From Saccharopolyspora gloriosae (GTDB lineage: Bacteria; Actinomycetota; Actinomycetes; Mycobacteriales; Pseudonocardiaceae), in the NCBI RefSeq assembly GCF_022828475.1, contig NZ_CP059557.1, positions 6,619,470-6,683,469 on the forward strand: DNA of 64,000 nt. Direction: 5' to 3'. The stretch's first letter is position 1. Each line of letters begins with the position of its first letter. The notes beneath the pieces are model-generated. The model was not told where the DNA came from, did not search any database, and saw only the letters and a list, made by a program, of their open reading frames with translations. A program made the translations under genes and the position numbers. Positions 2,151 through 61,976 of this stretch are shown here, piece after piece.

Positions 2151-3190
2151 AGGCGGCGACGGTAGTGCCCGGCAAGCCGGAGTTGGCGGCGGTATCCGAG
2201 CTCCCGGAGCCGACACCGGGACCGGGCGAACTGCTGGTCGACGGCCTGCTGGTGGGCGCGTGCGCGACCGATCACGACGTGACGCACGCCGCGCACGGCG
2301 TGCTGCCGCCGGGTCAGGACCGGATGGTGCTGTTCCACGAGTCCCTCGGCCGGGTGCGGTACGCGCCGGCGATCAGCGGTTTCAGCGAGGGCGATCTGGT
2401 CGTGGGCGTGGTGCGCAGGCCGGATCCGCACCCGTGCCAGGCGTGCGCGGCCGGGCAGTGGGATTTCTGCCTCAACGGCGAGTTCACCGAGTGCGGCATC
2501 AAGGAGCTGGACGGTTTCGGCGCGCAGCGCTGGACGATCGAACCCCGGTTCGCGATCAAGGTCCCGTCCGGGCTGGGCGATCTCGGGGTGCTCACGGAAC
2601 CGGCTTCGGTGGTGACGAAGGCGTGGGAGCAGGCCGAGCTGATCGGCCGCCGCGCCTACTACGCGCCGCGGCACGCGCTGGTCACCGGCGCGGGCGCGAT
2701 CGGGCTGCTGGGCGCGTTGCTCGGGGTGCAGCAGGGGCTGGACGTGCACGTACTGGATCAGGTGACCGACGGGCCGAAACCGGATCTGGTGCGGCGCCTG
2801 GGCGCGACTTACCACACCTCGTTGGACGATCTGGGCTGCGAACCGGACGTGGTGATCGAGGCGACGGGCGCGGGCGAGGTGGTGTTCGACGTGCTGCGCC
2901 GCACCGCCCGCAACGCGATCACGGTGCTCACCGGCATCGCGGGGCACGACCGGACGCTGCCGGTGCCCGCCGGTGCGATCAACGACGAGCTGGTGCTGGA
3001 CAACGACGTGGTGGTGGGCAGCGTCAACGCGAACCTGCGCCACTACGAGCAGGCGGTCCGCTCCCTCGCGGACGCGGACCCGGCCTGGCTGGGCGACTTG
3101 ATTAGCCGTCGCGTCCCGCTGGACTCGTGGACCGACGTCCTCACCCGGGCCGACGACGACGTGAAACCCGTGGTGGACCTGCAGGCCTGA
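2147..3190 (+). CDS. zinc-type glucose 1-dehydrogenase family protein
   Basis: A 347-residue medium-chain dehydrogenase. The start GTG at 2147 shares GTGA with the stop of the GH15 gene and has GGAAGGGA upstream, so the two are translationally coupled. Visible features are the N-terminal metal site region (ACATDHD near residue 39 and FHE near 64), a structural-zinc-type segment with Cys residues near 88-104, the Rossmann motif GAGAIG near residue 177, and the C-terminal GSVNANLRHYEQA block typical of glucose dehydrogenases of the archaeal type. It probably oxidises glucose, released by the upstream enzyme, to gluconolactone using NAD(P). Other sugars remain possible. Confidence 0.8.
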   Translation: MKAATVVPGKPELAAVSELPEPTPGPGELLVDGLLVGACATDHDVTHAAHGVLPPGQDRMVLFHESLGRVRYAPAISGFSEGDLVVGVVRRPDPHPCQACAAGQWDFCLNGEFTECGIKELDGFGAQRWTIEPRFAIKVPSGLGDLGVLTEPASVVTKAWEQAELIGRRAYYAPRHALVTGAGAIGLLGALLGVQQGLDVHVLDQVTDGPKPDLVRRLGATYHTSLDDLGCEPDVVIEATGAGEVVFDVLRRTARNAITVLTGIAGHDRTLPVPAGAINDELVLDNDVVVGSVNANLRHYEQAVRSLADADPAWLGDLISRRVPLDSWTDVLTRADDDVKPVVDLQA

Positions 3191-3197
3191 GACGCGA

Positions 3198-3228
3198 CGA
3201 GCCCGCGCCGGTGCTCGGCGCGGGCTCG
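3198..3228. terminator. bidirectional hairpin between convergent genes
   Basis: A 13-bp stem, 3198-3210 with 3216-3228, around a 5-base loop lies between the dehydrogenase stop (3190) and the convergent lipoprotein stop (3247). It has no T tract on either side, as is common in GC-rich actinomycetes. Confidence 0.6.
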
Positions 3229-3246
3229 CGGTCTGCCGCGGTGGGA

Positions 3247-3903
3247 TCAGAACACTACGACGCCCTGCGGGGAGGGCTGCAGGGTGCCGATCTGCATGCT
3301 CTTGACCGCGATCTCAACCGCGCCGCTGTCGCCGTTGAAGCCCTCGACCTCGGCGTTGACCTCGCCGTTCATGTCCGACGGGGTCGCGGTGAAGCCGGAG
3401 GCGACCTGGGCGTCCGGGTCGGACTTCTCGGCGCGCTCGATCTTCACACCGGCGAAGGCGGTCTTGCCGGGCTCCAGGGTCAGGCCCGCGTCCGGGCCGG
3501 GCAGGTTGACGTTCTCGGTGGGCACGTCGATTGCCTCGCCCGCCATGTTGGTCGGGGTGAGGTTCACCCAGCCGCCGAGCTCGCAGGACTTGTCCGAGGT
3601 GTTCTCCAGCTGGACCAGGAACCTGCTGCTGGCACCCGCGTCGGAGGGCTGCGCCTGCATGGTGACCTTGAAGTCCTCCGCCGAGCAGTTGGAGGCGGAG
3701 ATGTCGTCGTGCGTGCCGCTGGCGTGGTCGTCGGACGGGGCGAGGTCGGACCCCATGCCCTCCGTGGCGGGTGCGGTGTCGGAGCCCATGCCCTCCTGGC
3801 CCACCGCGGAGTTCGTCGCAGCCTGGCCGCCGCAGCCGGCGAGCAGCAGCGCGCCCCCGGCCAATGCCGCCACCGTGGTCGCCGTACGAGTCCGCTTCAA
3901 CAT
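3247..3903 (-). CDS. DUF4232 lipoprotein
   Basis: 218 residues. An N-terminal lipoprotein signal (hydrophobic AALAGGALLLAG followed by Cys at the LLAGC lipobox) is followed by a Met/Gly/Asp-rich linker with two EGMGSD repeats. A single DUF4232 domain follows from about residue 70, with the pattern SNCSAEDFKV, then LENTSDKSCELGGWVNL and a final VKSMQIGTL block. The family is exported and common in actinomycetes; its biochemical role is unknown. ATG at 3903 is preferred over the GTG three bases earlier because an AGGAAAGG stretch lies upstream. A paralogue of the same family is encoded at 12158-12685. Confidence 0.85.
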   Translation of the reverse strand: MLKRTRTATTVAALAGGALLLAGCGGQAATNSAVGQEGMGSDTAPATEGMGSDLAPSDDHASGTHDDISASNCSAEDFKVTMQAQPSDAGASSRFLVQLENTSDKSCELGGWVNLTPTNMAGEAIDVPTENVNLPGPDAGLTLEPGKTAFAGVKIERAEKSDPDAQVASGFTATPSDMNGEVNAEVEGFNGDSGAVEIAVKSMQIGTLQPSPQGVVVF

Positions 3904-4079
3904 CACTTCAGCCTTTCCTCGGATGTGCGCCGGTGTCCCCCCGCGCTTTCTCTACCCGTAGGACGTCCGCCTGCTCGGCGAGTTGCACGGCCAGGCGAAA
4001 AATTTCGGATCACCCGCCGAACTATCTGGATCTGCGCAGGTGAACGGCCGGATCGGGCGAAGAGGACGGCGGCGGCCCG

Positions 4080-6242
4080 TCACACGTGGTCGGCGATGAA
4101 CGCCCGGATGCGTTCCGGGGAGCAGGGGCGGGCAAAGAAGTAGCCCTGCCCGGTCTCGCACCCGATCTCCGCCATCCGGCGGGCCTGGGCGTGGGTCTCG
4201 ACGCCTTCGGCGGTGACGGTCAGCCCGAGGGTGTGCGCCAGGTCGACGAGGGTGCCGACGATGCGGGCGTCGACGGGGTCGGCCTTCTCCGGGTCGCGCA
4301 GCCCGTACATGAAGGAACCGGCGATCTTCAGCTCGTGCACCGGCAGGTGCCGCAGGTAGGCGAGGTTCGAGTAGCCGGTGCCGAAGTCGTCGATGGCGAT
4401 GCGCACGCCCATCTTGGTCAGCGCCCACAGGGTTTCGATCGGTTCGTCGGCGGTGCCCATCACGGCGCTCTCGGTGAGTTCGAGCTGCAGCCGGGACGGG
4501 TCGAGGTCCGTTTCGCGCAGGATCGTCTCGACGTCGGTGACGAGGTTGGGGTCGCGGGATTGCCGGACCGCGAGGTTGACGCTGACGAACGGGGCGGCGT
4601 CGCCGAACTCGACCTGCCACTGCTTGGCCTGCCTGCACGCCTGGCGCAGCACCCAGCGGCCGAGCGGCACGATGAGCCCGGTCTCCTCCGCCAGAGAGAT
4701 GAACCGGTCCGGGCCGAGCCTGCCGAGGTCGGGGTGCCACCAGCGGGCGAGGGCTTCGACGCCGACCACGCCGAATTCGCGCAGGCCCACCAGCGGCTGG
4801 TACTCGACGAAGAACTCTTCGCGTTCCAGCGCGGCGGGCATGGTGGCCGAGAGCCGGTATTGCGCGACTTCGGTGGCGTTGCGTTCGGGGTCGAACAGCG
4901 CCCAGCGGCCCTTGCCTTCGGCTTTCGCCCAGTACAGGGTCACGTCTGCGTCGCGCATGAGTTCGGCGGCGCTCTGGCCGTGCACGCGGCGTTCGACGAT
5001 GCCGATGCTGGCGGAGACGGACAGTTCGTGGCCGCCGATGCGGATGGGCTCGATGAGGGTGTCGAGGATTTCGTCGGCGATCTCGATGGCTTGTTCGGTG
5101 CCGGGCGAATCCTCGATGAGGATGACGAATTCGTCGCCGCCCATTCGCGCCACCAGCCGGTCCTCGCCGTGCACGGACAGCCCGAGCCGTTCGGCCACGG
5201 CGACGAGCAGGTCGTCGCCGACGTGGTGGCCGAGGCTGTCGTTGATGACCTTGAACCCGTCGAGGTCCATGTAGCACAGCGCGACGCGGCCGCCTTGGTC
5301 TCGGCTGCGCATGGCGAAGGTGAGGCGTTCCATGAACAGCGCCCGGTTCGGCAGCCCGGTCAGCGGATCGTGCATCGCCTGGTGGCGCAGCCGGTCCTGC
5401 AGCAGTTTCCGCTCGGTGACGTCTTCGACCATGGCCACCTGGTAGAGCGGCATGCCGTCTTCGCCGCGCACCAGGGAGACGATCACCTCGGTCCAGGCGC
5501 GGCCGCCGTCGGGGCGGGTGAACTGCTTCTCGACGCGGTACTGGTCGCGTTCGCCGCGCACGAGTTCCTCGTAGAGCCGCCAGAAGCCTTCGGAGTCCGC
5601 GGGATGCAACCAGTCGTGCATGGTCATCCGCCGGAGCTCGTCGGCGGGGCGTCCGAGGATGCGCCGCAGCGAGGAGTTCACTTCGAGGACGTGCCCGGCC
5701 ATGTCGGCGATGCAGATGCCGATGGCGGCTTCGGCGAAGATCGCCCGGAAGCGGGCTTCGCTGGTGCGCAGGGCTTGTTCGACGGCGTCGCGGGCGTCGA
5801 GCACGGCCTGCCGGATGGCTTCTTGTTCGTCGAGGGTGCGTTTGCGGGCGGCCTGCACGAATCCGGTGCACACGGCGCCTTGCAGCGCGGCGATGCGCCG
5901 CCGCCAGCCGGGGCCTTCGTCGAGGTGCAGGACGTCGAGGAATTCGTCGCCGATGAGGTCGATGGTGCGGGCCAGCGAGTCGGCGCTGGTGAAGTGCACG
6001 GCGACGAGGTCGTCACCGACGCCGTGGCCGGGCGCCGGGTCGAACGGGTCGGAGAGCAGGGCGTCCACCAGCCGGTCGGTATAGCCGAGTAGTCGGCCTT
6101 CGACTTCCGCACTGGTCATCGGAACGTAGCTGGTGCCCATCAAGGCTTGGGCCCATACCGCCGCGAACCGCCTGCGGTCGGTTCTGCTCACCGCCGGCTC
6201 CGTCTCTTGAGCGCTGGGAACCGGTGTGGTCCACCCCGTCAT
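4080..6242 (-). CDS. PAS-GGDEF-EAL cyclic-di-GMP turnover protein
   Basis: About 720 residues with no membrane segment. An uncharacterised N-terminal region (1-155) is followed by a PAS domain (about 160-275, ending EDVTERK), a GGDEF domain with intact GGDEF at 368-372, and an EAL domain with EAL at 496-498 and the loop DFGTGYSNL. Both catalytic motifs look complete, so it may make or degrade c-di-GMP, with PAS sensing and partner proteins deciding the direction. In actinomycetes c-di-GMP controls development through BldD. ATG at 6242 (MTGWTTP) is chosen for its GGAGGG about 10 bases upstream; the frame stays open further upstream. Confidence 0.85.
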   Translation of the reverse strand: MTGWTTPVPSAQETEPAVSRTDRRRFAAVWAQALMGTSYVPMTSAEVEGRLLGYTDRLVDALLSDPFDPAPGHGVGDDLVAVHFTSADSLARTIDLIGDEFLDVLHLDEGPGWRRRIAALQGAVCTGFVQAARKRTLDEQEAIRQAVLDARDAVEQALRTSEARFRAIFAEAAIGICIADMAGHVLEVNSSLRRILGRPADELRRMTMHDWLHPADSEGFWRLYEELVRGERDQYRVEKQFTRPDGGRAWTEVIVSLVRGEDGMPLYQVAMVEDVTERKLLQDRLRHQAMHDPLTGLPNRALFMERLTFAMRSRDQGGRVALCYMDLDGFKVINDSLGHHVGDDLLVAVAERLGLSVHGEDRLVARMGGDEFVILIEDSPGTEQAIEIADEILDTLIEPIRIGGHELSVSASIGIVERRVHGQSAAELMRDADVTLYWAKAEGKGRWALFDPERNATEVAQYRLSATMPAALEREEFFVEYQPLVGLREFGVVGVEALARWWHPDLGRLGPDRFISLAEETGLIVPLGRWVLRQACRQAKQWQVEFGDAAPFVSVNLAVRQSRDPNLVTDVETILRETDLDPSRLQLELTESAVMGTADEPIETLWALTKMGVRIAIDDFGTGYSNLAYLRHLPVHELKIAGSFMYGLRDPEKADPVDARIVGTLVDLAHTLGLTVTAEGVETHAQARRMAEIGCETGQGYFFARPCSPERIRAFIADHV

Positions 6243-7707: not shown

Positions 7708-8868
7708 ATGGGTGAGGTCGATGCCGGTGCCGGGCCGCCGGTTCGGCGGGAGCGGCGAGCCGGACTGGTGCTGACGATCGTGCTCGCCGTGGTGGTGCTG
7801 GCGGGGACGAGCGCCGGGCTGCTGCTGTTCGACCAGCGCAGCACCGGGGCGGACGCGCTGCGCACGGGCGGTCTCGCCGCCGGGTCCGTGGTCGCGCTGT
7901 ACGCGCTGTGGCTCAACGATCGGCGGCGGCGCGTGGAGGAACGACGGCAGAAGCTGGACCAGCGGCGCCAAGCACTCGACCAGGAGCGCTACGACCTGGA
8001 GCGCAGGCGCCAGGAGCTGGAGGACCGCCGCACCGATCACGACCGGGACCGCGCCGACGACGAACGTTTCGCCCGCGCCGTGGAGCTGCTCGGGCACGAG
8101 GCCGATCAGGTCAGGGTCGGCGCGATGCACGCGCTGGCGGGCTTGGCGCGCAGCAGGCCGTACTACACGCAGACCGTGCTGGACGTGCTGTGCTCCTACC
8201 TGCGCCGCCCGTTCGATCATCCTAAGTGGACGATTCCGGAGTCGGACGCGGTGCCGGATCACGTCGGTGGGTACCCGCCGATCGCGCCGGAGCTGGAGCG
8301 GGAGCGGCACGCGCGGCAGACCGCGCAACGCCTGATCATCGAGCTGTTGCCGACGCGGGACGAGCCTGATCCCACGATCTACGACCTCGACCTGACTCGG
8401 GCCTGGCTGGAGCGGTTCAACCTGTCGGATCGCGTCGTGGGCCGGATCGCGGCGTACCGCTGCCGGTTCCGGCACACCACGAACCTCAGCCGCGCGGTGT
8501 TCCACGGCGACGTGCACTTCCGGGATTCGGTGTTCCTGGGGCGCATTCGGGCGACGGGCTCGGAGTTCCGCGGCGCCTTGGAACTTCGCGGGATCCGCAC
8601 CCTGGACCCGTGCGATTTCGATCGGGCGCGGTTCTCGCGGAACGTGGACCTCAAGCGGATGAGCTGCGCGGCCAGGTGGTTCGTGCGGGACGTCGAGTTC
8701 GGCGGTGACGTGGATCTGCGTTCGACCCGGCTGAACGGTGGCATCGACCTGCGGCTGAGCGCTCCGGTGCACGAGGTGCTGCTGGACGATCTGCTGGTCG
8801 CCGACGGCTCCACGCTCCCCGACCGGTGGGATTCCGTTGCGGCGCAACAGGAGCAGTTGAATGCGTAA
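7708..8868 (+). CDS. membrane-anchored pentapeptide-repeat-like protein (paralogue 1)
   Basis: About 386 residues. Two hydrophobic segments near the N-terminus (LVLTIVLAVVVLAGTSAGLLL and TGGLAAGSVVALYALWL) are followed by a very charged Arg/Glu/Gln coiled coil (about 75-115). Next comes a conserved block FARAVELLGHEADQVRVGA, then VLDVLCSYLRRPF. The C-terminal third has a five-residue periodicity (VFHGDVHFRDSVFLG) resembling pentapeptide repeats. These proteins are common in actinomycetes and of unknown function. Start ATG 7708 is inferred from a TGCGAT box just upstream and no Shine-Dalgarno; ATG 7696 is an alternative. It overlaps the next gene, its paralogue, by 8 bases. Confidence 0.7.
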   Translation: MGEVDAGAGPPVRRERRAGLVLTIVLAVVVLAGTSAGLLLFDQRSTGADALRTGGLAAGSVVALYALWLNDRRRRVEERRQKLDQRRQALDQERYDLERRRQELEDRRTDHDRDRADDERFARAVELLGHEADQVRVGAMHALAGLARSRPYYTQTVLDVLCSYLRRPFDHPKWTIPESDAVPDHVGGYPPIAPELERERHARQTAQRLIIELLPTRDEPDPTIYDLDLTRAWLERFNLSDRVVGRIAAYRCRFRHTTNLSRAVFHGDVHFRDSVFLGRIRATGSEFRGALELRGIRTLDPCDFDRARFSRNVDLKRMSCAARWFVRDVEFGGDVDLRSTRLNGGIDLRLSAPVHEVLLDDLLVADGSTLPDRWDSVAAQQEQLNA

Positions 8869-9817
8869 GTACGGACTGCTCGCGACGGTCCTGCTCGCGG
8901 CGCTGGTGCTGTTCGGCGTGAGCGCGGCGCTGCTGGTGTTCGACGCCCGCGTGAACGGCGCGGACGCGTTGCGCACCGGCGGTTTCGCGGCGGGTTCGGT
9001 GGTCGCGCTCTACGCGCTGTGGCTCAACGATCGGCGCCGCCGCGTCGACGAGGGCAGGCAGCAGCTGGAGGGGGCGCGGACCGACCTCGACCGGGAACGC
9101 ATCGCCGACGAGCGCTTCGCCCGCGCCGTGGAACTGCTCGGGCACGAGGCCGATCAGGTGCGGGTCGGCGCGCTGCACGCCTTGGCGGCGCTGGCCCGCA
9201 GCTCTCCCGGCCACACCCAGACGGTGCTGGACGTCCTGTGCTCTTACCTGCGGCGACCGTTCGCGCATCCGCGCTACGACGGGGGCGAGTGGGAGCGGGA
9301 CGAGCGCAACGCGGCGGACCGCGAGCTCCAGGTGCGGCTGACCGCGCAGCGGCTCATCACCGACCTGCTCCCGCCCGTGGAGGCCGACTCGCCCGCTCAC
9401 GACTTGGACTTCACGAACGCGACGCTGGAGTACTTCGACCTTTCCGGGCGCCGGATCGGCACGTTGGTGGCGCGCTACGCGCGGCTGTTCCACGACAACA
9501 ACTTGAGCCGGTGCGAGGTGACCGGTCCGGTGTGGATGACCCGCGCCACCGTGCACGCGGGCGGCCGGTTCCGCTGCCGGGACGCGGTGTTCCGCGGTCG
9601 CGCCCAGTTCGCCGGGGTCGAGTTCGGCGGGCCGGTCGCGTTCGACCGCTCGGTGTTCCACGGCGTGGCCGATTTCTACGGCGCGGCGCTGCACTCCGAG
9701 GTGAGCTTCGCGGACTGCCGCTTCGAGGACGCGGCGAAGTTCAGCGACGCCACCTGCAAGGACACCGATCTGGACGCGCTGTTGAGCACGGCCGCCGTCC
9801 GGCCCGCGCCGCAGTAG
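8861..9817 (+). CDS. membrane-anchored pentapeptide-repeat-like protein (paralogue 2)
   Basis: 318 residues, sharing long near-identical blocks with the preceding protein: GADALRTGG, AAGSVVALYALWLNDRRRR, RFARAVELLGHEADQVRVGA and QTVLDVLCSYLRRPF. It is therefore a tandem duplicate. It has the same architecture of two N-terminal hydrophobic segments, a shorter coiled coil and a C-terminal five-residue-periodic region (VFRGRAQFAGVEFGGPVAF). Its ATG lies inside the end of the upstream gene (ATGCGTAA), implying translational coupling and possibly a hetero-oligomer. Function unknown. Confidence 0.75.
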   Translation: MRKYGLLATVLLAALVLFGVSAALLVFDARVNGADALRTGGFAAGSVVALYALWLNDRRRRVDEGRQQLEGARTDLDRERIADERFARAVELLGHEADQVRVGALHALAALARSSPGHTQTVLDVLCSYLRRPFAHPRYDGGEWERDERNAADRELQVRLTAQRLITDLLPPVEADSPAHDLDFTNATLEYFDLSGRRIGTLVARYARLFHDNNLSRCEVTGPVWMTRATVHAGGRFRCRDAVFRGRAQFAGVEFGGPVAFDRSVFHGVADFYGAALHSEVSFADCRFEDAAKFSDATCKDTDLDALLSTAAVRPAPQ

Positions 9818-21255: not shown

Positions 21256-21285
21256 GAACGGACCGTCCGGTGGGGCGGCCCGTTC
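21256..21285. terminator. weak member of the GAACGG terminator family
   Basis: GAACGGACCG and CGGCCCGTTC form an imperfect stem around GTCCGGTGGGG between the convergent hydrolase and Asp-rich protein genes. Confidence 0.4.
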
Positions 21286-21297
21286 GGCGCGGCGAGA

Positions 21298-21789
21298 TCA
21301 GTCGTCGTGCCGGCCGTCGTCGAGGTGGTCGTCGCCGTCGTCGAGGTGGTCGTCCCGGTCGTCGCGGTCGTCAATGTGGTCATCGCGGTCGTCGTCGCGG
21401 TCATCGCGGTCGTCGAACCGGTCATCCCGGTCGTCGCGGTCGTCGCGGTCGTCGCGGTCGTCGCGGTCGTCGCGGTCGTCGCGGTCGTCGCGATCATCCC
21501 GGTCGTCGTCGAACCGGTCGTCGCGGTCATCGTCGAAGCGGTCGTCCAAGTGGTCATCGCGGTCGTCGAGGTCGTCGACCTGCGGCAGCGGCCCGGCCCC
21601 CGGCACGCCGGCGGGGAGGTCGTCGCGGTCGTCCCACGGCCCGTCGTCGTCCCAGCCGACCGCCGAGGCCGGAGCGGGCCGCTGTTCCTGCGCCGCGCCG
21701 CCCAGCGCGACACCCGCGCCGCCGATCCCCAGCACGCCGACGATCGCCGCGGTGGTCAACACTGCCCTGCTCGGCTTCCTGATCCTCAT
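21298..21789 (-). CDS. secreted Asp/Arg repeat protein
   Basis: About 163 residues. A signal peptide (MRIRKPSRAVLTTAAIVGV, then Gly/Ala) precedes a short linker. About 100 residues built almost only of Asp and Arg follow, mainly DDR and DDRDDRFDD repeats with occasional His and Leu (DDHLDD). It is thus a polyampholyte with a net negative charge that could bind calcium or other cations. The DNA is a 9-bp minisatellite, so copy number may vary between strains. Open frames exist on the other strand only because of the repeat; the signal peptide and AAGGAC ribosome site favour this one. Confidence 0.65.
   Translation of the reverse strand: MRIRKPSRAVLTTAAIVGVLGIGGAGVALGGAAQEQRPAPASAVGWDDDGPWDDRDDLPAGVPGAGPLPQVDDLDDRDDHLDDRFDDDRDDRFDDDRDDRDDRDDRDDRDDRDDRDDRDDRDDRFDDRDDRDDDRDDHIDDRDDRDDHLDDGDDHLDDGRHDD
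21320..21560. repeat. 9-bp minisatellite inside the Asp-rich gene
   Basis: Tandem GGTCGTCGC units on the plus strand (coding DDR-type units on minus) with point variation. At least six consecutive perfect units occur around 21430-21487. Confidence 0.8.
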
Positions 21790-23864: not shown

Positions 23865-24010
23865 GCGAAGCCGATCAGCGGCGACCACGCACGCAGCAGG
23901 ACCACCGGCGGGTCCTCAGCGGTCTTCTCGCGGACAGCGATTTCGCTCGTGGCGGAGCCACTTGCGAAATCGATCCCGCAGCGAGAAGGCCGCTGAGGTT
24001 CCGCTACCCG
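23865..24010 (-). repeat. dispersed hairpin element, copy A (short-tail type)
   Basis: Core 23901-24010, read on the minus strand: GGGTAGCGGAACCTCAG, outer stem, conserved internal loop TGCGGGATC, inner stem CGATTTCG/CGAAATCG, apical GTGGC-TCC-GCCAC, second internal-loop strand GCTGTCC, then closing arm and GACCCGCCGGTGG. Its flank to 23865 (GGCGAAGCCGATCAGCGG) is shared with copy C but not with B, D or E. It lies between purB and purC. Confidence 0.8.
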
Positions 24011-24046: not shown

Positions 24047-25477
24047 TCAGAGGATCGGGGACGGGGTGTAGGCCGCTGCCTCCGGGTAGCGGGAGAGGAC
24101 GTCATCGACGGCGGCGACGATCGCGGTGACCTGATCGGACGCCGCACCGGTGAACGAGAGCCGGTCGGCGAGCAGCTTCTCCAGGTCCGCCTGGTCCAGC
24201 GGCAGCCGGTCGTCGGCGGCGAGCCGGTCCAGCAGGTCGTTGCGCTCGATTCCCTGCTCCCGCATCGCCAACGCCACCGCGACCGCGTTCTCCTTGATCG
24301 CCTCGTGCGCCGTTTCCCGGCCCACCCCGGCGCGCACGGCGGCCATCAGCACCTTCGTCGTCGCCAGGAACGGCAGGTAGCGGTCCAGCTCGCGGGACAC
24401 CACCGCCGGGTAGGCGCCGAACTCATCGAGCACCGTCAGGAACGTCTCCAGCAACCCGTCGAACGCGAAGAACGCGTCCGGCAGCGCGATGCGGCGCACC
24501 ACCGAGCAGGACACGTCGCCCTCGTTCCACTGGTCCCCGGCCAGCTCACCGGCCATCGACACGTACCCGCGCAGCACCACGGACAGGCCGTTGACGCGCT
24601 CGCAGGAACGGGTGTTCATCTTGTGCGGCATGGCGCTCGAACCGACCTGGCCCGGCTGGAAGCCCTCGGTGACCAGCTCGTGCCCCGCCATCAACCGGAT
24701 CGTCTTCGCCACCGAGGACGGCGCCGCCGCCAACTGCGACAACGCGGTGAGCACCTCGAAGTCCAGCGACCGCGGATACACCTGGCCGACGCTGGTGAGG
24801 ACCTTGCCGAACCCGAGGTGATCGGTGATCCGGCCTTCCAGGTCTGCGAGCTTCCCCGCGTCGCCGAGCAGGTCCAGCATGTCCTGCGAAGTGCCGACCG
24901 GCCCCTTCACGCCGCGCAGCGGGTAGCGCGCCAGCAGGTCTTCGAGCCTGCCGAACGCGACGAGCAGCTCGTCGGCGGCCGTCGCGAAGCGCTTGCCCAG
25001 CGTCGTGGCCTGCGCGGCGACGTTGTGCGAACGGCCCGCCATCACCAGCTCGCCGTGCTGCGCCGCCAGCCGCGCGAGCCTGCCCAGCACCGCCACCGTG
25101 CGGTCGCGCACGTGCTCCAAGCTGCGGCGGACCTGCAACTGCTCGACGTTCTCGGTGAGGTCGCGGGAGGTCATGCCCTTGTGCACGTGCTCGTGCCCGG
25201 CGAGGGCGTTGAACTCCTCGATGCGGGCCTTCACGTCGTGCCTGGTCTGCCGCTCGCGCTCGGCGATGGAATCCAGGTCTACCTGGTCGATGACGCGCTC
25301 GTAGTCGGCGACCGCGCCCTCCGGCACGTCGACGCCGAGGTCCGCCTGCGCGCGCAGCACCGCCAGCCACAGCTGGCGTTCCAGCACGACCTTGTGCTGC
25401 GGGGACCACAGCTCGACCAGCTCCGGCGAGGCGTAGCGGTGGGCGAGCACGTTCGGGAGGTGGGGCTTGACCGTCAC
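24047..25477 (-). CDS. purB: adenylosuccinate lyase
   Basis: 476 residues, the usual length. It catalyses two fumarate-releasing steps of purine synthesis (SAICAR to AICAR, and adenylosuccinate to AMP). The superfamily signature SSAMPHKMNTRSCERVNG (near 290) is present, together with HVHKGMTSRDLTENV carrying the catalytic His region. The start is GTG 25477: TATCCT lies eight bases upstream with no ribosome site, suggesting a leaderless message. Confidence 0.96.
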   Translation of the reverse strand: MTVKPHLPNVLAHRYASPELVELWSPQHKVVLERQLWLAVLRAQADLGVDVPEGAVADYERVIDQVDLDSIAERERQTRHDVKARIEEFNALAGHEHVHKGMTSRDLTENVEQLQVRRSLEHVRDRTVAVLGRLARLAAQHGELVMAGRSHNVAAQATTLGKRFATAADELLVAFGRLEDLLARYPLRGVKGPVGTSQDMLDLLGDAGKLADLEGRITDHLGFGKVLTSVGQVYPRSLDFEVLTALSQLAAAPSSVAKTIRLMAGHELVTEGFQPGQVGSSAMPHKMNTRSCERVNGLSVVLRGYVSMAGELAGDQWNEGDVSCSVVRRIALPDAFFAFDGLLETFLTVLDEFGAYPAVVSRELDRYLPFLATTKVLMAAVRAGVGRETAHEAIKENAVAVALAMREQGIERNDLLDRLAADDRLPLDQADLEKLLADRLSFTGAASDQVTAIVAAVDDVLSRYPEAAAYTPSPIL

Positions 25478-31254: not shown

Positions 31255-32301
31255 GTGACCAAAACGGCATCCATAGATCTGCGTTCCGACACGGTCACGC
31301 GTCCCGACAAGCGGATGGCCGCGGCGATGGCCGAAGCCGAAGTCGGTGACGACGTGCTGGACCACGACCCCACGATGCGAGCGCTGGAGGAGAAGGCCGC
31401 CCAGCTGCTGGGCACGGCCGCCGCACTATGGGTGCCCAGCGGCACGATGGGCAATCTGATCGCGCTGTCGGTCCACCTCCGACGGGGAGACCGGTTCCTC
31501 GCGCCACGCGGGGCGCACGTGCTGCACCACGAACTCGGCTCCGCAGCGTGGCTCGCCGGCGGCATGCCGGAACCCCTCGAATGGGACGCCGGTCCGGGAC
31601 GCCCCACCGCCGACTCGGTACGTGCGCACGCAAACGGTGACCGGCGCTACGACGCGCTGCACACCACGCTGCTGTGCCTGGAGAACACGCACAACGCCGC
31701 CGGCGGCGCCGTCATCCCGCCGCACGAGCACGCCCAGCTGGCCGCGGCCGCCCGGGACCGCGGACTGCGCGTGCACCTCGACGGCGCCCGGATCTGGAAC
31801 GCCGCGACCGCCCTGGAACTGCCGCCCGCCGCGTTGACCGTCGGGGTCGACACGGTGCAGGCCTGCCTGAGCAAAGGACTCGGCGCACCGGTGGGTTCCG
31901 TAGTGGCGGGCACCAGCGACTTCGTCGCCGAAGCCCGCCGGGTGCGCAAAATGCTCGGCGGCGGAGTCCGGCAAGGCGGAGTGCTCGCCGCGGCCGGGCT
32001 GCTGGCGCTGGATCGGGTATCGGCCCTGGCGGCGGACCACCGGCACGCGAAGCTGCTCGCGGACGGCCTCACCGAACTCGGCTGGGACATCACGCCGCCG
32101 CAGACGAACATCGTGCTGGCCGCGGTGCCGGATGTGCGGCTCACCTTGGACTGGCTGCAGGAGATCGGGGTGCTTGCGGTGCCGATGGACGGCAACGTTC
32201 GGTTCGTTACTCATCGTGACGTGGCTGAGCGGGATGTCAAGGACGTGCTCCGCCGTATATCGCGCACGACCCCAGCAGCCGGTATACCTCAGGCTGGTTG
32301 A
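31255..32301 (+). CDS. ltaE: low-specificity L-threonine aldolase
   Basis: 348 residues. A PLP fold-type I enzyme cleaving L-threonine or allo-threonine to glycine and acetaldehyde. It starts IDLRSDTVTRP, contains LENTHNAAGGAV, HLDGARIWNA and the PLP-lysine motif CLSKGLGAPVGSVV. The start is GTG 31255 with a TGTGAT box close upstream. Repeat element B follows and separates it from the convergent qsuB-like gene. Confidence 0.92.
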   Translation: MTKTASIDLRSDTVTRPDKRMAAAMAEAEVGDDVLDHDPTMRALEEKAAQLLGTAAALWVPSGTMGNLIALSVHLRRGDRFLAPRGAHVLHHELGSAAWLAGGMPEPLEWDAGPGRPTADSVRAHANGDRRYDALHTTLLCLENTHNAAGGAVIPPHEHAQLAAAARDRGLRVHLDGARIWNAATALELPPAALTVGVDTVQACLSKGLGAPVGSVVAGTSDFVAEARRVRKMLGGGVRQGGVLAAAGLLALDRVSALAADHRHAKLLADGLTELGWDITPPQTNIVLAAVPDVRLTLDWLQEIGVLAVPMDGNVRFVTHRDVAERDVKDVLRRISRTTPAAGIPQAG

Positions 32302-32330
32302 CCTTCCACGGCTCGTTCTGCGTGGGGGGC

Positions 32331-32760
32331 GGGTAGCGGAACCTCAGCTGTCTTCTCGCTGCGGGATCTTTTTCCCAAGTGGCTCCGCCACGAGGGAAAA
32401 AGCTGTCCTCGCGAGAAGACAGCTGAGAACCCGCCGGTGGTCGTTTTTTCGACGTGGGCTATGTGCTTCGCACATACAGGCACGGCTTCGCCGCCAGGCA
32501 CGGCCTTTGGCCGCGAGGCAGGCGGGGCTTCGCCCGCCCTTCGCGGACTCCGCCGCCACAAGCACGGCTACGCCGCAAAACACGGCCTCCGGCCGCAAAG
32601 CAAGCGGGGCTTCGCCCGCCCTTCGCGGACTCCGCCGCCACAAGCACGGCTACGCCGCAAAGCACGGCCTTCGGCCGCCAGGCAGGCGGGGCTTTGCCCG
32701 CGCTTCGTGGGCTTCGCCGCTGAAAGGACGGCTTCGGTGAGGAGGTTCGGCTTCGCCGGT
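32331..32760 (+). repeat. dispersed hairpin element, copy B with 82-bp tandem tail
   Basis: Core 32331-32442: GGGTAGCGGAACCTCAG, a 17-bp perfect outer stem (CTCAGCTGTCTTCTCGC with its complement ending at 32425), internal loops TGCGGGATC and GCTGTCCTC, inner stem TTTTTCCC/GGGAAAAA and apical GTGGC-TCC-GCCAC. The tail 32443-32760 is a chain of hairpins with TTC-type loops (TGTGC-TTC-GCACA, CGGCC-TTC-GGCCG). It includes an 82-bp tandem unit starting at 32498, 32580 and 32662. It fills the space between two convergent genes. Confidence 0.85.
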
Positions 32761-32768
32761 GGGCAGGG

Positions 32769-34616
32769 CTACTTGGATTCCAGGCGGCGTCTGCGGTGGG
32801 CCGCCATCCGGACCGGGGCGTTGGATTCGCCGCGGGCTCGGTAGCCGTTGATGCGTTGGACGATTTCGAAGAAGACTCGGGAGCCCGGGACGGCCACCGA
32901 GAAGTGCAGGTATTCGCCTTGGCGGTCGCGGTCGTAGAGGATCGAGTTCTCGCGCAAGGAAGCGAGCAGGTCCGGTGGGAGCTCCAGGCGGGCGTCCAGG
33001 TCGTCGTAGTAGTTGTCCGGGATCGCCACGACCGGTGCGCCCAATTCCCGCATCGCACGCGCGCTGGCGAACACGTCGTCGCTGCTCAGCGCCACGTGTT
33101 GCGGGTGCCGGACGCCCGGTGCCCACGGTCCTCTGCGCAGCACCGCCGAATCGAGCGCGATGCGCACCGTCTCGCCCCGGTCCAGCACCATCCGGCTGCG
33201 CACCAAGCCGAACGGTGCGGCGAACTCCACCGGCGGAGCGGGGCGCAGGCCCAGCACCGAGCGGTAGAACAGGATCGCCTCGTCGAAGTGGTCGAACGGC
33301 TGGGTCATCGCGACGTGGTCGATGCCGGTGACGCCCGCGTCTTGACCCCGTTCGTCCTGCTCGGGCTCGAAGTCGCCCAGCCACCCCGCGTCGCGGTCCG
33401 CGTCGGTGCGGCAGAAGAACAGCGCCGTGCCGTCCGGCGCGGCGACCGAGGACAGATCAGCCTCGTCGGGCCGGGCGGACCGAGGCAACACCGGCGCCAG
33501 CAGCCCTTCCGCGCGCCGGGTCGAGGCGGGCGGGTCCGCGCTGTGCACCCCGAGCGCGGCCAACGCCCCACCGCCACGATGCTCGGGCCGGTCCGGTTCG
33601 GTGTTCACCAAGATCCGCGCGGCGCCCTGCTCCCACAGGCGCACCGGCTTGGAGCGGTGCCGCCCGGCCGACCGGAAACCGAGCGCGGCCAGCGTCGAGT
33701 TCAACCGCTCGCCCCCGGAGTCGTCCGCGCCGAGCTCCACGAAGGCCGGGCCGGACAGCTCCGCAGGGGGCGGCAGGTGCACGGGGGCGGCCACCGATTC
33801 CTCCAGCGCGAGCAGCGAACGCATCGCGTCCACCGCCGCCGGGCCGGGGTCCGACTGCCGGAACACGTCGTTGAAAACCTCCAGCGACAACGGCCCCGCG
33901 TAACCCGCGGCGAGCACGGTGCCGACGAACTCGGCCAGGTCGAACTCGCCTTGACCTGGGAAGAGCCGGTGATGCCTGCTCCACTGCAACAGGTCCATGT
34001 TCAGCCGGGGCGCGTCGGCCAGCTGGAGGAAGAACAACTTCTCCGCCGGGATGGTGCGGATCGTGGTGAGATCGCTGCCGCGCGACAAGATGTGGAAGCT
34101 GTCCAGGCACACGCCCAGCGACGGGTGGTCGGCGCGGCGCACGATGCGCCAAGCGTGTTCGTAGGTGTTCACGAACCGTCCCCAGGCCAGCGCCTCGTAG
34201 CAGACCCGGATGCCGCGTTCGGCGGCCAGCTCGGCGAGTTCGCGCAGCTGCTCGGCGGCCAGATCGTCGTCGTCCACCGCGTCCGGGGAGACCGAGGAGC
34301 ACACCAGCACGGTGTCCGCGCCGAGCCGCGCCATCAGGTCGAACTTCCGCTCGGCGCGGCGCAGATTGGCCCGCAGCACGTCGGGCGGGACCGCTTCGAA
34401 ATCCCGGAACGGCTGGTAGAGGTCGATGGACAGGCCCAGTTCCGCGCAGCGTTCCCGGATCCGCTCCGGCGCGGAGGCGGAGGCGATCAGGTCGTTCTCG
34501 AAGATCTCCACCCCGCCGAATCCGGCGGCGGAAGCGGCGGTGAGCTTGTCCTCCAGCGAGCCGGACAGGCAGACCGTGGCGATGGAGCGGGCGCGTTCAG
34601 CGGGCGACGTGGACAC
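32769..34616 (-). CDS. qsuB: 3-dehydroshikimate dehydratase fused to an HPPD-like domain (QsuB type)
   Basis: 615 residues. The N-terminal sugar-isomerase-type TIM barrel (1-275) has the four metal-binding positions of this family: Glu141 in CYEALAWG, Asp172 in CLDSFHIL, Gln198 in FLQLADAP and Glu246 in SLEVFND. It dehydrates 3-dehydroshikimate to protocatechuate. The C-terminal part (about 430-600) resembles 4-hydroxyphenylpyruvate dioxygenase and keeps a 2-His/1-Glu set (GIDHVAM, PQHVALS, FFEIVQR). GTG 34616 overlaps the preceding dehydrogenase gene by 20 bases. Together they form a quinate/shikimate breakdown operon. Confidence 0.93.
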   Translation of the reverse strand: MSTSPAERARSIATVCLSGSLEDKLTAASAAGFGGVEIFENDLIASASAPERIRERCAELGLSIDLYQPFRDFEAVPPDVLRANLRRAERKFDLMARLGADTVLVCSSVSPDAVDDDDLAAEQLRELAELAAERGIRVCYEALAWGRFVNTYEHAWRIVRRADHPSLGVCLDSFHILSRGSDLTTIRTIPAEKLFFLQLADAPRLNMDLLQWSRHHRLFPGQGEFDLAEFVGTVLAAGYAGPLSLEVFNDVFRQSDPGPAAVDAMRSLLALEESVAAPVHLPPPAELSGPAFVELGADDSGGERLNSTLAALGFRSAGRHRSKPVRLWEQGAARILVNTEPDRPEHRGGGALAALGVHSADPPASTRRAEGLLAPVLPRSARPDEADLSSVAAPDGTALFFCRTDADRDAGWLGDFEPEQDERGQDAGVTGIDHVAMTQPFDHFDEAILFYRSVLGLRPAPPVEFAAPFGLVRSRMVLDRGETVRIALDSAVLRRGPWAPGVRHPQHVALSSDDVFASARAMRELGAPVVAIPDNYYDDLDARLELPPDLLASLRENSILYDRDRQGEYLHFSVAVPGSRVFFEIVQRINGYRARGESNAPVRMAAHRRRRLESK

Positions 34617-47504: not shown

Positions 47505-47680
47505 TGATCTTTTGATCGTTGTCCTGTCAGCGGCGAAGCCGATGAGCAGTGACCAGCCAGAGCAAAACGACCACCGGCGGGTTCTCAGCGGCTTCCTCGC
47601 GAGGACAGCCATTTCGCCGTGTATCGGACATACATCAGAAATGGATCCCGCAGCGAGGAAGCCGCTGAGGTTCCGCTGAG
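47505..47680 (-). repeat. dispersed hairpin element, copy C (short-tail type)
   Basis: Core 47570-47680, read on the minus strand. The outer arms are CTCAGCGGCTTCCTCGC and its exact complement, internal loops TGCGGGATC and GCTGTCCTC, inner stem CCATTTC/GAAATGG, apical TGTAT-GTCCG-ATACA. Every stem differs in sequence from copies B, D and E yet still pairs. The flank down to about 47505 resembles copy A. It lies between the ssu leader region and the HNH nuclease gene. Confidence 0.8.
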
Positions 47681-47713
47681 TGACCAGCTACGCAGACCGC
47701 TTTAAAAAGCTCA

Positions 47714-48352
47714 TCAGCAAGTGCCGAGGGCGTCCTTGAGAGCCGTCTTCTCCGCTTCGGTGACGGTCAGTTCGTACTTGTGCTTCGAGCCGACCCACAT
47801 CGACGCGTAGGTGCAGTGGTAACCGGCTTCCGGCGGCATCCACTGGTCCGGGGTCTGATCGCTCTTCTCCTGGTTCACGTTGTCCGTGACGGCGATGAGC
47901 TGCGGGCCTTCGAGGTCGTTGGCGAACGCCTCGCGCTGTTCGTTGGTCCACTCCGCAGCACCGGACCGCCAGGCGGCGGCCAGCGGCACCACGTGATCGA
48001 TGTCCACATCGGACGGCTTGGTCCAGGAGCCGCCGTCGTACGGGCTGTTCCAGGTGCCCGAAGTCGGGTAGCAGTCGGAGCCGACCTCGACGTTCTCCCC
48101 GTCGCGCTTGAGCACGGCCTCGCGCGTGTTGCACCCGTCGGAACCTTCGCTCCAGTGCGGGAACTTCTCGCGGTCGTAGCCGTCGGAGGAACCTTCGGGC
48201 GCGACCTGGAGCTCGTCGAGCTGGGTCTGCGCGGTGGCTCCGTCGGGGATGCCGGGCGGCTCGGCACCGGCGGGCAGGGCCAGGCCCAGCGACAGGGCGC
48301 CGGCCAGGGGAAGAGCGGTCAGGGCTGCGCGAAGCGTACGTTTCGGCGTCAT
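47714..48352 (-). CDS. secreted HNH endonuclease (DUF1524/GmrSD C-terminal-like)
   Basis: 212 residues. A signal peptide (MTPKRTLRAALTALPLAG, ending near PAGA) is followed by a mature domain with CNTREAVLKRDG and the HNH core DVDIDHVVPLAAAWRSGA, FANDLEGPQLIAV and NVNQEKSDQTPDQWMPP. His in DHV and Asn in NVNQ are the expected catalytic and metal positions. Probably an extracellular nuclease for nutrient scavenging. GGAGGA eight bases upstream of the ATG. Confidence 0.9.
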   Translation of the reverse strand: MTPKRTLRAALTALPLAGALSLGLALPAGAEPPGIPDGATAQTQLDELQVAPEGSSDGYDREKFPHWSEGSDGCNTREAVLKRDGENVEVGSDCYPTSGTWNSPYDGGSWTKPSDVDIDHVVPLAAAWRSGAAEWTNEQREAFANDLEGPQLIAVTDNVNQEKSDQTPDQWMPPEAGYHCTYASMWVGSKHKYELTVTEAEKTALKDALGTC

Positions 48353-49260: not shown

Positions 49261-51637
<2,377 letters not shown>

Positions 51638-51753
51638 GAGGACCTCCAGGTATTCGGTGCAGATGTCGTGATCCACACCGAACCCGGAGGTCCTCACTCA
51701 TTCCAAGATCATCCGCCCCGTGTCCCCCGTTCACAACCTCCCGAGACACAACA

Positions 51754-52060
51754 GGTAGCGGAACCTCAGTGAGCCTCTCGCTGCGGGATCTTTTTCCCTA
51801 GTGGCTCCGCCACGAGGGAAAAGCCGTCCTCGCGAGAGGCTCACTGAGAACCCGCCGGTGGTCGGCTTTTCGACGTGGGCTATGCGCTTCGCGCATACAG
51901 GCACGGCCTTCGGCCGCCAGGCAGGCTTGCTTCACCTCCCGACGGCACGCCCTGCGGCCGCGAGGCAGGCTTGCTTCGGTTCGCCCTTCGCGGACTACGC
52001 CGCCCAAGTGCACGGCTTCGCCGCAAGGATGCGGCTTCGCCGTGCCAAAGGACCGACTCG
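51754..52060 (+). repeat. dispersed hairpin element, copy D with hairpin tail
   Basis: Core 51754-51863: outer arms CTCAGTGAGCCTCTCGC and exact complement, internal loops TGCGGGATC and CCGTCCTC, inner stem TTTTTCCCT/AGGGAAAA, apical GTGGC-TCC-GCCAC. The tail includes TATGCGC-TTC-GCGCATA, where copies B and E have TATGTGC/GCACATA (a paired change). The IS481 element abuts its left edge; the tail ends at the 3' end of the FUSC gene. Confidence 0.85.
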
Positions 52061-60192: not shown

Positions 60193-60741
60193 TCAGCTCA
60201 GACCGAGATCGGCGAGGTTCAGCAGCGAACGGTAGCTCAGCCCCTCGGCCTCGATGGCCTCTTTCGCGCCGGTCCCGCGATCCACCACGGTCACCACACC
60301 GACGATCTCGGCGTTCTCCTCGCGCAGCGCCTCCACCGCGGTGAGCACACTGCCGCCGGTGGTGGAGGTGTCCTCCACGGCGAGCACCTTGCGGCCCGCG
60401 ACGCCAGGACCTTCGATGCGCCGCTGCATGCCGTGCGCCTTCGCGTCCTTGCGCACCACAAAAGAATCGATCGGGCGGCCGGGCGCGTGCATCATCGCGG
60501 TCGCGACAGGATCCGCGCCCAACGTGAGACCACCGACCGCGTGGTGCTCCCAATCCGCGGTGAGCTGCCGCAACAACGTGCCGATGAGCGGTGCGGCGGC
60601 GTGGTGCAGCGTCGCCCGGCGCAGGTCGACGTAGTAGTCGGCCTCCTTGCCGGAGGACAACGTCACCTTGCCGTGCACCACGGCGAGCTCGGTGACGAGC
60701 CGGGCGAGCTCAACACATTCCACCTGGTCAACCTGATTCAC
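60193..60741 (-). CDS. pyrE: orotate phosphoribosyltransferase
   Basis: 182 residues. The PRPP-binding motif VLAVEDTSTTGGSVLTAV (near 120) and the flexible-loop Lys region RKDAKAHG are typical. It makes OMP from orotate and PRPP in pyrimidine synthesis. GTG 60741 has TAAACT eight bases upstream (leaderless). Likely cotranscribed with the two downstream genes. Confidence 0.96.
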   Translation of the reverse strand: MNQVDQVECVELARLVTELAVVHGKVTLSSGKEADYYVDLRRATLHHAAAPLIGTLLRQLTADWEHHAVGGLTLGADPVATAMMHAPGRPIDSFVVRKDAKAHGMQRRIEGPGVAGRKVLAVEDTSTTGGSVLTAVEALREENAEIVGVVTVVDRGTGAKEAIEAEGLSYRSLLNLADLGLS

Positions 60742-60790: not shown

Positions 60791-61190
60791 CGGGTGGCGG
60801 AACCTCAGCTGTCTTCTCGCTGCGGGATCTTTTTCCCTAGTGGCTCCGCCACGAGGGAAAAAGCTGTCCTCGCGAGAAGACAGCTGAGAACCCGCCGGTG
60901 GCCACCTTTTCGACGTGGGCTATGTGCTTCGCACATACAGGCACGGCCTTCGGCCGCGAGGCAGGCGGGGCTTCGCCCGCCCTTCGAGGGCTTCGCCGCC
61001 AAAAGCACGGCCTTCGGCCGCGAGGCAGGCGGGGCTTCGCCCGCCCTTCGAGGGCTTCGCCGCCAAAAGCACGGCCTTCGGCCGCGAGGCAGGCGGGGCT
61101 TCGCCCGCCCTTCGAGGGCTTCGCCGCCAAAGGCACGGCTTCGTCGGCAGAGGCACGGCTATCGCCGTTAGGCGGGCGGGGCTTTGGCTG
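60791..61190 (+). repeat. dispersed hairpin element, copy E with 64-bp tandem tail
   Basis: Core 60791-60903, nearly identical to copy B (outer arms CTCAGCTGTCTTCTCGC and complement, TTTTTCCC inner stem). The tail has three perfect or nearly perfect 64-bp tandem units starting at 60941, 61005 and 61069. Each unit contains CGGCC-TTC-GGCCG, CGGGGC-TTC-GCCCG and GGC-TTC-GCC hairpins. It lies between pyrE and the SDR gene, both on the minus strand. Confidence 0.87.
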
Positions 61191-61202: not shown

Positions 61203-61976
61203 TCAGGTTCGGCCGGGGACTGTTCGGGTTACCACTGCTCGTTGGAGGCGGTGGGGGATCAGGCGGCCGATGGTGACGAGGGCCTTGTACTGCGGGCTGG
61301 GGATGGAGACCGAGCGGCCGCGGCGGAGGTCGGTGAGGCCTTCGTGGACCACGTCGTCGGCGCGCAGCCAGAACGCCTTCGGCAAGCGGCTCATGGAAAG
61401 GCCGGCTCGCTCGTGGAACTCGGTCCGGGTGAAGCCGGGGCACAGCGCCATCACTCGCACTCCGGTGCCGGTCAGCGCGGAGGACAGGCCCTCGGAGAAC
61501 GTCGTCACCCAGGACTTGGTGGCGGCATAGGTGGAACCGGCCACGGAGAAGAACCCGGCCACGCTGGACAGGTTGATCACGTCGCCGCCCCCGCGCGCCC
61601 GCATCCCCGGCACCGCCGCGTGCGTCAGCCGCAGCACGGCGGCCACATTGAGGTCGAGCTGCTTGCGCAAGGTCGCCGGTTCGGTGTCCCAGAACGCGCC
61701 GGAAGTGCCGAAGCCCGCGTTGTTGACCAGCAGGTCCACCGGCCGCCGCTCGTCGGCGACGCGGCGCTCCACCTCGGCGAGCTGCGCCGGGTCGGCGAGG
61801 TCCGCGACGAGCACTTCGACGGTGACGCCGTGACGCGCGCGCAGCGCCTCGGCCAGCGCCTCCAGCCTCGTGGCGTCGCGGGCGACGAGCACCAGGTCGT
61901 GCCCCTCGGCGGCGAGCCTGCGGGCGAAGGCGTTGCCGATCCCGGCGGTGGGGCCGGTGACAAGTGCGGTAGGCAT
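61203..61976 (-). CDS. short-chain dehydrogenase/reductase
   Basis: 257 residues, classical SDR. The cofactor motif TGPTAGIGNAFARRLA (T-G-x3-G-x-G), NNAG, catalytic Ser in LSSVAGFF, Tyr-x3-Lys in YAATKSW and CPGFTRTEFHERAG are present. Substrate unknown; the DltE-like group with the LSMSRLPKAFWLRADDVV tail is common in actinomycetes. ATG 61976 has TACGGT seven bases upstream (leaderless). Confidence 0.92.
   Translation of the reverse strand: MPTALVTGPTAGIGNAFARRLAAEGHDLVLVARDATRLEALAEALRARHGVTVEVLVADLADPAQLAEVERRVADERRPVDLLVNNAGFGTSGAFWDTEPATLRKQLDLNVAAVLRLTHAAVPGMRARGGGDVINLSSVAGFFSVAGSTYAATKSWVTTFSEGLSSALTGTGVRVMALCPGFTRTEFHERAGLSMSRLPKAFWLRADDVVHEGLTDLRRGRSVSIPSPQYKALVTIGRLIPHRLQRAVVTRTVPGRT

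Follow-up and report, generated by a model that had tools for sequence, protein, structure and literature searches.

A dispersed palindromic repeat of Pseudonocardiaceae with covarying arms and constant internal loops at gene 3′ ends

Small palindromic repeats in bacterial genomes are usually treated as products of REP transposases or as dead MITEs. Single-stranded DNA hairpins that are recognized by structure and unpaired bases, and not by stem sequence, are found in attC sites and at the ends of IS200-IS605 elements, and the TRIT terminators of actinobacteria are hairpins at gene 3′ ends. To our knowledge, neither TRIT nor clustered-hairpin terminators have been reported to disperse as units that conserve their loops, and we know of no report for ERIC/RU-1, YPAL, RUP or SPRITE of arms that covary across genera around fixed loops. 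In the available part of PMC3733652, REPs are high-copy intergenic palindromes with stems of 5-13 bp that lie downstream of genes, between convergent or co-directional genes, and they are reported as targets of insertion sequences (PMC1525189). ERIC/RU-1, YPAL, RUP and SPRITE are small, palindromic, intergenic and non-autonomous, with transcripts predicted to fold, and SPRITE is called terminator-like (accessible portions of PMC2229807 and PMC10969869, the latter for SPRITE). The clustered-hairpin terminators of actinobacteria are, in the excerpted text of PMC8355165, hairpins just past stop codons, often without a U tract.

Here we analyze a hairpin element from a 64,000-nucleotide window (the whole stretch of DNA studied) of Saccharopolyspora, a genus of the family Pseudonocardiaceae; its own genome is referred to as G000, and G002 and G004 belong to the same genus. 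Like REPs and the GTAG- and CGTC-tagged repeats, the element is intergenic, lies near stop codons, has GTAG near its foot in part of its copies and appears to be an insertion sequence target. Unlike REPs, its hairpin is much longer and contains fixed internal loops, its arms differ freely between copies yet stay complementary, and no Y1 transposase is found in G000-G003. The same lack of a Y1 transposase in G000-G003 separates it from attC sites and IS200-IS605 ends, as does an AAC on both strands in place of AAC/GTT. It shares a small, palindromic, intergenic character with ERIC/RU-1, YPAL, RUP and SPRITE but comes from an unrelated lineage, and the hairpin arrays that follow its erythraea-type copies are reminiscent of clustered-hairpin terminators. 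By analogy, its placement and dispersal appear most like those of REP-type or ERIC-type mobile palindromes.

Each copy is about 100 nt, with long arms that vary in step and internal loops that stay constant. Read 5′ to 3′, the left half of a typical copy consists of CGGGT(A/G), the foot GCGG, AAC, and CTCAG followed by a 9-bp variable arm and CGC or GGC. The center holds TGCGGGATC or TCCGGGATC, an inner stem with a small apical hairpin, and GCTGTCCTC, and the right half the complementary arm, CTGAG, AAC and CCGC. The element has four fixed parts, namely the GCGG/CCGC foot, the symmetric AAC/AAC loop, the asymmetric TGCGGGATC/GCTGTCCTC loop and the small apical hairpin. By itself the outer helix spans 17 bp, with further helices inside. 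The copies in the window and the features next to them are as follows:

23898..24010, minus strand: copy A; foot about 42 nt past the stop codon of the minus-strand gene 24047-25477; one C.A arm mismatch
32330..32444, plus strand: copy B, the element first described; foot GCGG 34 nt past the stop codon of the plus-strand gene 31315-32301
32476..32736, plus strand: short GC hairpin array with an 82-bp spacing of its copies, immediately downstream of copy B
47567..47682, minus strand: copy C; foot about 37 nt past the stop codon of the minus-strand gene 47714-48352
50600..50646, plus strand: copy D, left end, lying 3′ of the plus-strand gene 49321-50607; severed by an insertion sequence and terminating in GGTAGC
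50647..51753, minus strand: 1107-bp insertion sequence of the IS481 family, flanked left and right by GGTAGC; cuts copy D at its foot
51754..51865, plus strand: main part of copy D; as located in the window, copy D spans 51752-51865
51900-52007 of the window: short hairpin array of the CACGGCTTCGCCG/GGCGGGGCTTCGCCCGCC type, following an erythraea-type copy
60791..60905, plus strand: copy E; antisense to the minus-strand genes 60193-60741 and 61203-61976, with no same-strand gene upstream
60919..61143, plus strand: short GC hairpin array with a 64-bp spacing of its copies, lying downstream of copy E

The original prediction had placed five copies in the window, and a repeat search together with direct reading found all five where it put them; since all five were in the training set of our covariance model, the model search merely relocates them. 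A search with the 17-nt start (up to three mismatches) gave five matches in the window against 0.24 expected. Four of these are copies, and the fifth (37558) coincides with no covariance-model match. Copy C was missed because it begins CACTCAGCGG. The outer arms are exact complements in copies B and E (CTGTCTTCT/AGAAGACAG), C (CGGCTTCCT/AGGAAGCCG) and D (TGAGCCTCT/AGAGGCTCA), as predicted, while those of copy A (CGGCCTTCT/AGAAGACCG) contain one C.A mismatch. The loop strand GCTGTCC, thought to be constant, reads GCCGTCC in copy D, and in copy A two bases are missing after the strand. Downstream of copy B, the gene 32769-34616 on the minus strand is convergent.

Some neighboring repeats are recorded here as separate observations. 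Short GC hairpin arrays of the CACGGCTTCGCCG/GGCGGGGCTTCGCCCGCC type come after erythraea-type copies, and their first hairpin varies between species with both arms altered (TATGTGCTTCGCACATA vs. TATTCGCTTCGCGAATA). Elsewhere in the window, repeats of 244 nt and 212 nt lie about 1.05-1.1 kb apart at 7761-9270 (75-81% identity), and a long GGTCGTCGC-type repeat with a period of 9-12 nt occupies 21274-21610.

The five copies are a large undercount of a family with at least 186 chromosomal copies. A strict two-anchor pattern found 186 (91 forward, 95 reverse) in the 6.88 Mb chromosome, and its reversed control found 0. One contiguous stretch of 320 kb holds 26 places by the covariance model (E≤0.01, reverse-strand duplicates removed) and 16 by the strict pattern, so the chromosome total is perhaps about 300. 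Near-identical copies are dispersed across the chromosome. By BLAST, 13 of 60 genomes (own included) carry the element, all of them Pseudonocardiaceae, and none of 24 from the other families of the order does. A covariance-model search of the family, of the sort that the original prediction had proposed, scored 31 candidates in each genome and found the element in 30 of 120 Pseudonocardiaceae genomes (own included), from 12 of 46 genera. A class-wide model search found the element in 1 of 296 genomes, its own, and was a weak test, with 12 candidates scored per genome and few members of the family sampled. At least 120 stretches in a public collection contain it; among the 80 listed are Saccharopolyspora and also Amycolatopsis, Sciscionella, Halopolyspora, Saccharomonospora and Pseudonocardia, all likewise Pseudonocardiaceae. 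The element is thus seen in Pseudonocardiaceae only, and is patchy there. Rfam gave no match in the window at gathering scores and none in four loci at E≤1, which rejects a known RNA family. No description of the element was found in the literature searched (for the most part papers outside subscription), nor in the available part of an S. erythraea RNA-seq paper (PMC3610266).

For the cross-genus analysis of covariation, 62 of 66 listed copies from several genera were aligned. Paired cells made up 84.4% of 1884, compared with 68.3% in shuffled and 39-46% in slid alignments; 20 of 31 pairs showed double changes, and the covariation score was 0.387 against 0.121 shuffled and 0.07-0.15 slid. Support for the apical helix in the form drawn is poor, with 32.7% of its cells paired, and several apical types exist. 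Distinct arm pairs numbered 144 in 256 copies (24 of 280 were left out of this count), and some copies look chimeric, with arms from two types. Among all 280 collected copies, the loop strands were TGCGGGATC in 198 or TCCGGGATC in 64 and GCTGTCCTC in 223 or GCCGTCCTC in 29, with AAC in 276 (left) and 272 (right); these counts lean high, as the collecting script tolerated only small departures at the loop anchors. A fairer test used 121 distinct exact matches of a pattern confined to the left half (4 more were cut by the locus edge). Allowing one mismatch, their next 110 nt contained GCTGTCCTC in 115 of 121 and AGAACCCGC in 115 of 121, against 2 and 3 in shuffled tails. In a separate collection of 182 distinct matches, 10 without inner anchors were dropped.

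Related sequences can beat shuffles even without structure, and for this reason a single orthologous locus was sought. In one low-copy genus (1-4 copies per genome, in 7 of 7 genomes), a copy lies behind gatB in five genomes and is missing there in two. These five copies have double changes at 10 of 29 pairs and one-sided changes at none, with 93.1% of 145 cells paired against 35-50% when slid. All five have the foot GGGG/CCCC, which occurs in 5 of the 280 collected copies, three at gatB and two in G010, a count that omits the feet of the other two gatB copies. With 150 candidates scored in each, no second copy was found in G122, G095 or G142 at E≤1e-5, so there is no obvious donor copy. Besides G122, G095 and G142, the element was present at 3 of 28 resolved gatB loci (G437, G439 and G003), two further loci being unresolved; among the 24 other resolved carriers, only G003 has a copy within 330 nt, past an ordinary hairpin. 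Apparent remnants of the element also follow the gatB stop codon in other genera, at locus L309 (G018) and locus L297 (G010). Compensatory changes therefore exceed controls both across genera and at gatB, which supports a structure under selection, as originally proposed in place of random decay, and rejects a likeness of the five copies due to chance or shared ancestry.

Which strand folds is a separate matter. In the outer arms of 240 copies with equal 17-nt arms and one with 18 (15 of 255 copies had unequal arms or another arm length, one of them 18/18), 3877 of 4098 cells were Watson-Crick, 35 G.U (<1%) and 136 A.C. On the complement, the A.C cells of the sense strand are G.T wobbles, and the AAC/AAC loop is GTT/GTT. 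With RNA parameters (means -61.5 vs. -57.1) the complement is the more stable fold in 196 of 239 copies, and with DNA parameters it is favored in 199 of 239. Distinct arms with up to three mismatches contained 73 CA, 15 TG, 14 AC and 9 GT, although many CA cells fall at one position in related arms and are not independent events. No bias toward either strand is seen in the inner stems (51 GU, 48 AC). Selection on the sense-strand RNA as the sole cause is not supported by this wobble test. Because both mismatches and folding favor the complement, we caution that the upstream mRNA should not be assumed to be the selected molecule.

Neighboring genes were taken from our own codon-usage calls, which are not curated, for the 241 of 255 copies with both neighbors (14 left out; a smaller neighbor count likewise left out 14 of 179 copies without a neighbor on one side). 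The 241 copies lie in 105 convergent, 90 tandem same-strand, 39 tandem opposite and 7 divergent gaps, compared with 108 convergent, 402 tandem and 106 divergent background gaps in 37 stretches of the own genome. A same-strand gene is upstream in 195 and absent in 46, copy E among the latter. In 147 of these 195 the foot is 25-50 nt past the stop codon, most commonly at 37 nt; copies A, B, C and D, the last with the insertion sequence discounted, fall 34-42 nt past a same-strand gene. At same-strand gene ends the element is within 55 nt of the stop codon in 42 of 48. Where gene ends are free of the element, a hairpin of -15 kcal/mol or lower occurs within 80 nt in 215 of 294, compared with 94 of 186 upstream controls. 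The element thus occupies the slot where other gene ends hold hairpins, and from this place we infer that it probably serves as a 3′-end hairpin. By eye, a T run follows about 9 nt beyond the stem in erythraea-type copies and none in the other types viewed; the element does not show the U tract immediately after a GC hairpin that marks an intrinsic terminator. Some copies lie beyond an ordinary hairpin, and both observations speak against a simple terminator. A count of hairpins between stop codon and antisense copy (34 of 37) was set aside as support because the element's own downstream hairpin falls in that interval. As a side observation, a convergent pair that looks by sequence like a cold-shock protein and a small lipoprotein encloses a copy, in differing orientations, in two genera or more (loci L139, L204, L244 and L263).

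Copies are gained and lost between species. The gene end that holds copy C has no copy in G001 or G002; by eye, a GC hairpin and then a T run occupy the site there. G003 has a copy about 250 nt away. Copy D is absent in G003, inverted in G001 and in the same orientation in G002, and copy E, found in G001 and G002, has no counterpart in G003 or G005. G002 has an extra copy, and the surroundings of C and D are rearranged in G005. The 23 copies found in 320 kb of G000, when compared with G001, comprised 12 in the same orientation, 4 inverted and 7 with none recognized by the script. The reverse comparison of 24 G001 copies gave 12, 4 and 7, with one lacking syntenic flanks; G002 (60 kb) was comparable for just 5 of the 23 G000 copies, 3 shared and 2 not. 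Arm identity is lost at shared sites: 0 of 12 between G000 and G001 keep the 17-nt arm, and arms differ by 3.67 there and by 3.63 at shuffled sites. Identical arms occur in 15 of 253 pairs within G000, 18 of 276 within G001 and 7 of 552 between them. The element is a dispersing repeat with rapid turnover and not a fixed regulatory RNA, and its arms may turn over by gene conversion, repeated insertion or hairpin-templated rewriting. No clean target duplication was seen in the filled and empty site pairs that were read; a few copies have CTAG at both ends.

The repeat itself appears to be targeted by the IS481-family insertion sequence found in copy D, a feature that the original prediction does not mention. 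Its transposase ORF is listed at 50462-51697 on the minus strand, reading past the left end of the insertion sequence, with the Pfam matches inside it. Four separate copies of the element carry this 1107-bp insertion sequence at exactly one position, GGTAGC at the foot, with GGTAGC on either side and the insertion sequence in one or the other orientation: at 50647-51753 of the window, at 2728-3834 (plus) of locus L199, at 3537-4643 (minus-strand coordinates) of L218 and at 391-1497 (plus) of L222. Locus L182 has a similar junction.

Our best reading is a new actinobacterial form of the known dispersed palindromic repeats, those of the REP, ERIC or MITE sort. On balance, these are probably small, non-autonomous, dispersing palindromic elements of Pseudonocardiaceae, recognized by their loops and kept or tolerated as 3′-end hairpins. 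A folded single strand would be recognized through its fixed loops by the spreading machinery, which in copy-rich genomes would not be a REP tyrosine transposase, and a hairpin that landed at a gene end would be tolerated there or kept as a strong 3′-end hairpin, either for termination or for 3′-end protection. No autonomous partner was found among the genes beside copies, whose families form clusters of at most four that look like orthologues, which rejects a recurrent neighbor gene as the partner; the 18 clusters listed include no transposase. One form of this explanation makes the element a MITE moved in trans by the transposase of an ordinary DDE insertion sequence, its hairpin lying inside outer inverted repeats. 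Outer inverted repeats can be seen in single copies (14 nt and perfect in L164, CTAG-ended in L133, also L048 and L156), the complementarity of cognate ends slightly exceeds that of shuffled ends (6.40 vs. 6.18, highest of 20 shuffles 6.38; 6.11 vs. 5.92, highest 6.03), and an end motif is found 8 and 4 times in 273 copies against shuffled means of 1.8 and 0.7. The outer ends nevertheless vary in sequence between copies, the motif is at both ends in 1 of 273, and the screened neighbors contain no recurring transposase family, so fixed transposon ends are not established and this form is offered tentatively. A REP/REPIN-type system, in which a RAYT (a Y1 HUH tyrosine transposase) mobilizes palindromes and cuts at GTAG beside the hairpin, is very unlikely. 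High copy number and the 3′-end and convergent location agree with REPs as the available part of PMC3733652 presents them, and GTAG overlaps the foot in 106 of 280 copies, but 124 of 280 have GTGG instead. The TnpA-REP-like partner suggested in the original prediction has a mixed record: PF01797 occurs in 5 of 13 BLAST carriers (G004, G005, G010, G017 and G030) and in 6 of 47 non-carriers (Fisher p 0.049), in a search that was also positive in 5 of 14 controls, yet 8 of the 13 carriers are without it, including G000-G003 and G018, the genomes with the most first-look candidates. The element departs from REPs in two defining features, the presence of PF01797 (absent in G000-G003 and G018) and a stem of 5-13 bp (the range in the excerpt of PMC3733652; its outer helix alone has 17 bp). 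Such an origin is thus disfavored for the copy-rich genomes by the absence of PF01797, while a REP transposase may share in the spread in some lineages, because the gene is commoner in carriers than in non-carriers.

An immobile family of vertically inherited intrinsic terminators or 3′-UTR RNAs, multiplied by duplication and recombination only, would agree with the set distance from gene 3′ ends, with the gatB copy retained with paired changes in five genomes and with the copy between the convergent csp-like and lipoprotein genes in at least two genera. The presence or absence of copies at orthologous sites, the inversion of 4 of 23 at the same site and the near-identical copies across the chromosome make it unlikely, and we disfavor it on the first two grounds. 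A different question is whether complementarity reflects selection for pairing at all, or arm-to-arm copying at the DNA level, by template switching at quasi-palindromes or by recombination between copies. One-sided changes are rare (none at gatB, outer-arm G.U <1%) despite 144 arm pairs in 256 copies, and chimeric copies carry arms of two types, which makes such copying conceivable; against it, the non-complementary loops between the arms are fixed across genera, and arm-to-arm copying would erase them. We hold it as a possible minority reading. More speculative, and doubtful in our view, is a portable 3′-end module: the complement of the upstream mRNA would fold as single-stranded DNA and be recognized at its loops by a putative non-Y1 recombinase or transposase, the arms would be rewritten as perfect palindromes at each passage, and host genes would adopt the hairpin as a terminator, as at gatB. 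If true, such rewriting would let the arms covary without passing through wobble pairs and would leave shared sites with unlike arms.

Saccharopolyspora is an industrially important genus that includes erythromycin producers. It carries here a member of a large actinobacterial family in which shape, and not sequence, seems to be kept, and which is abundant in genomes without the usual transposase and lies at a set distance from stop codons. The family offers a natural experiment in how a repeat keeps its two arms matched while replacing them, and in whether host genes gain terminators from mobile hairpins.
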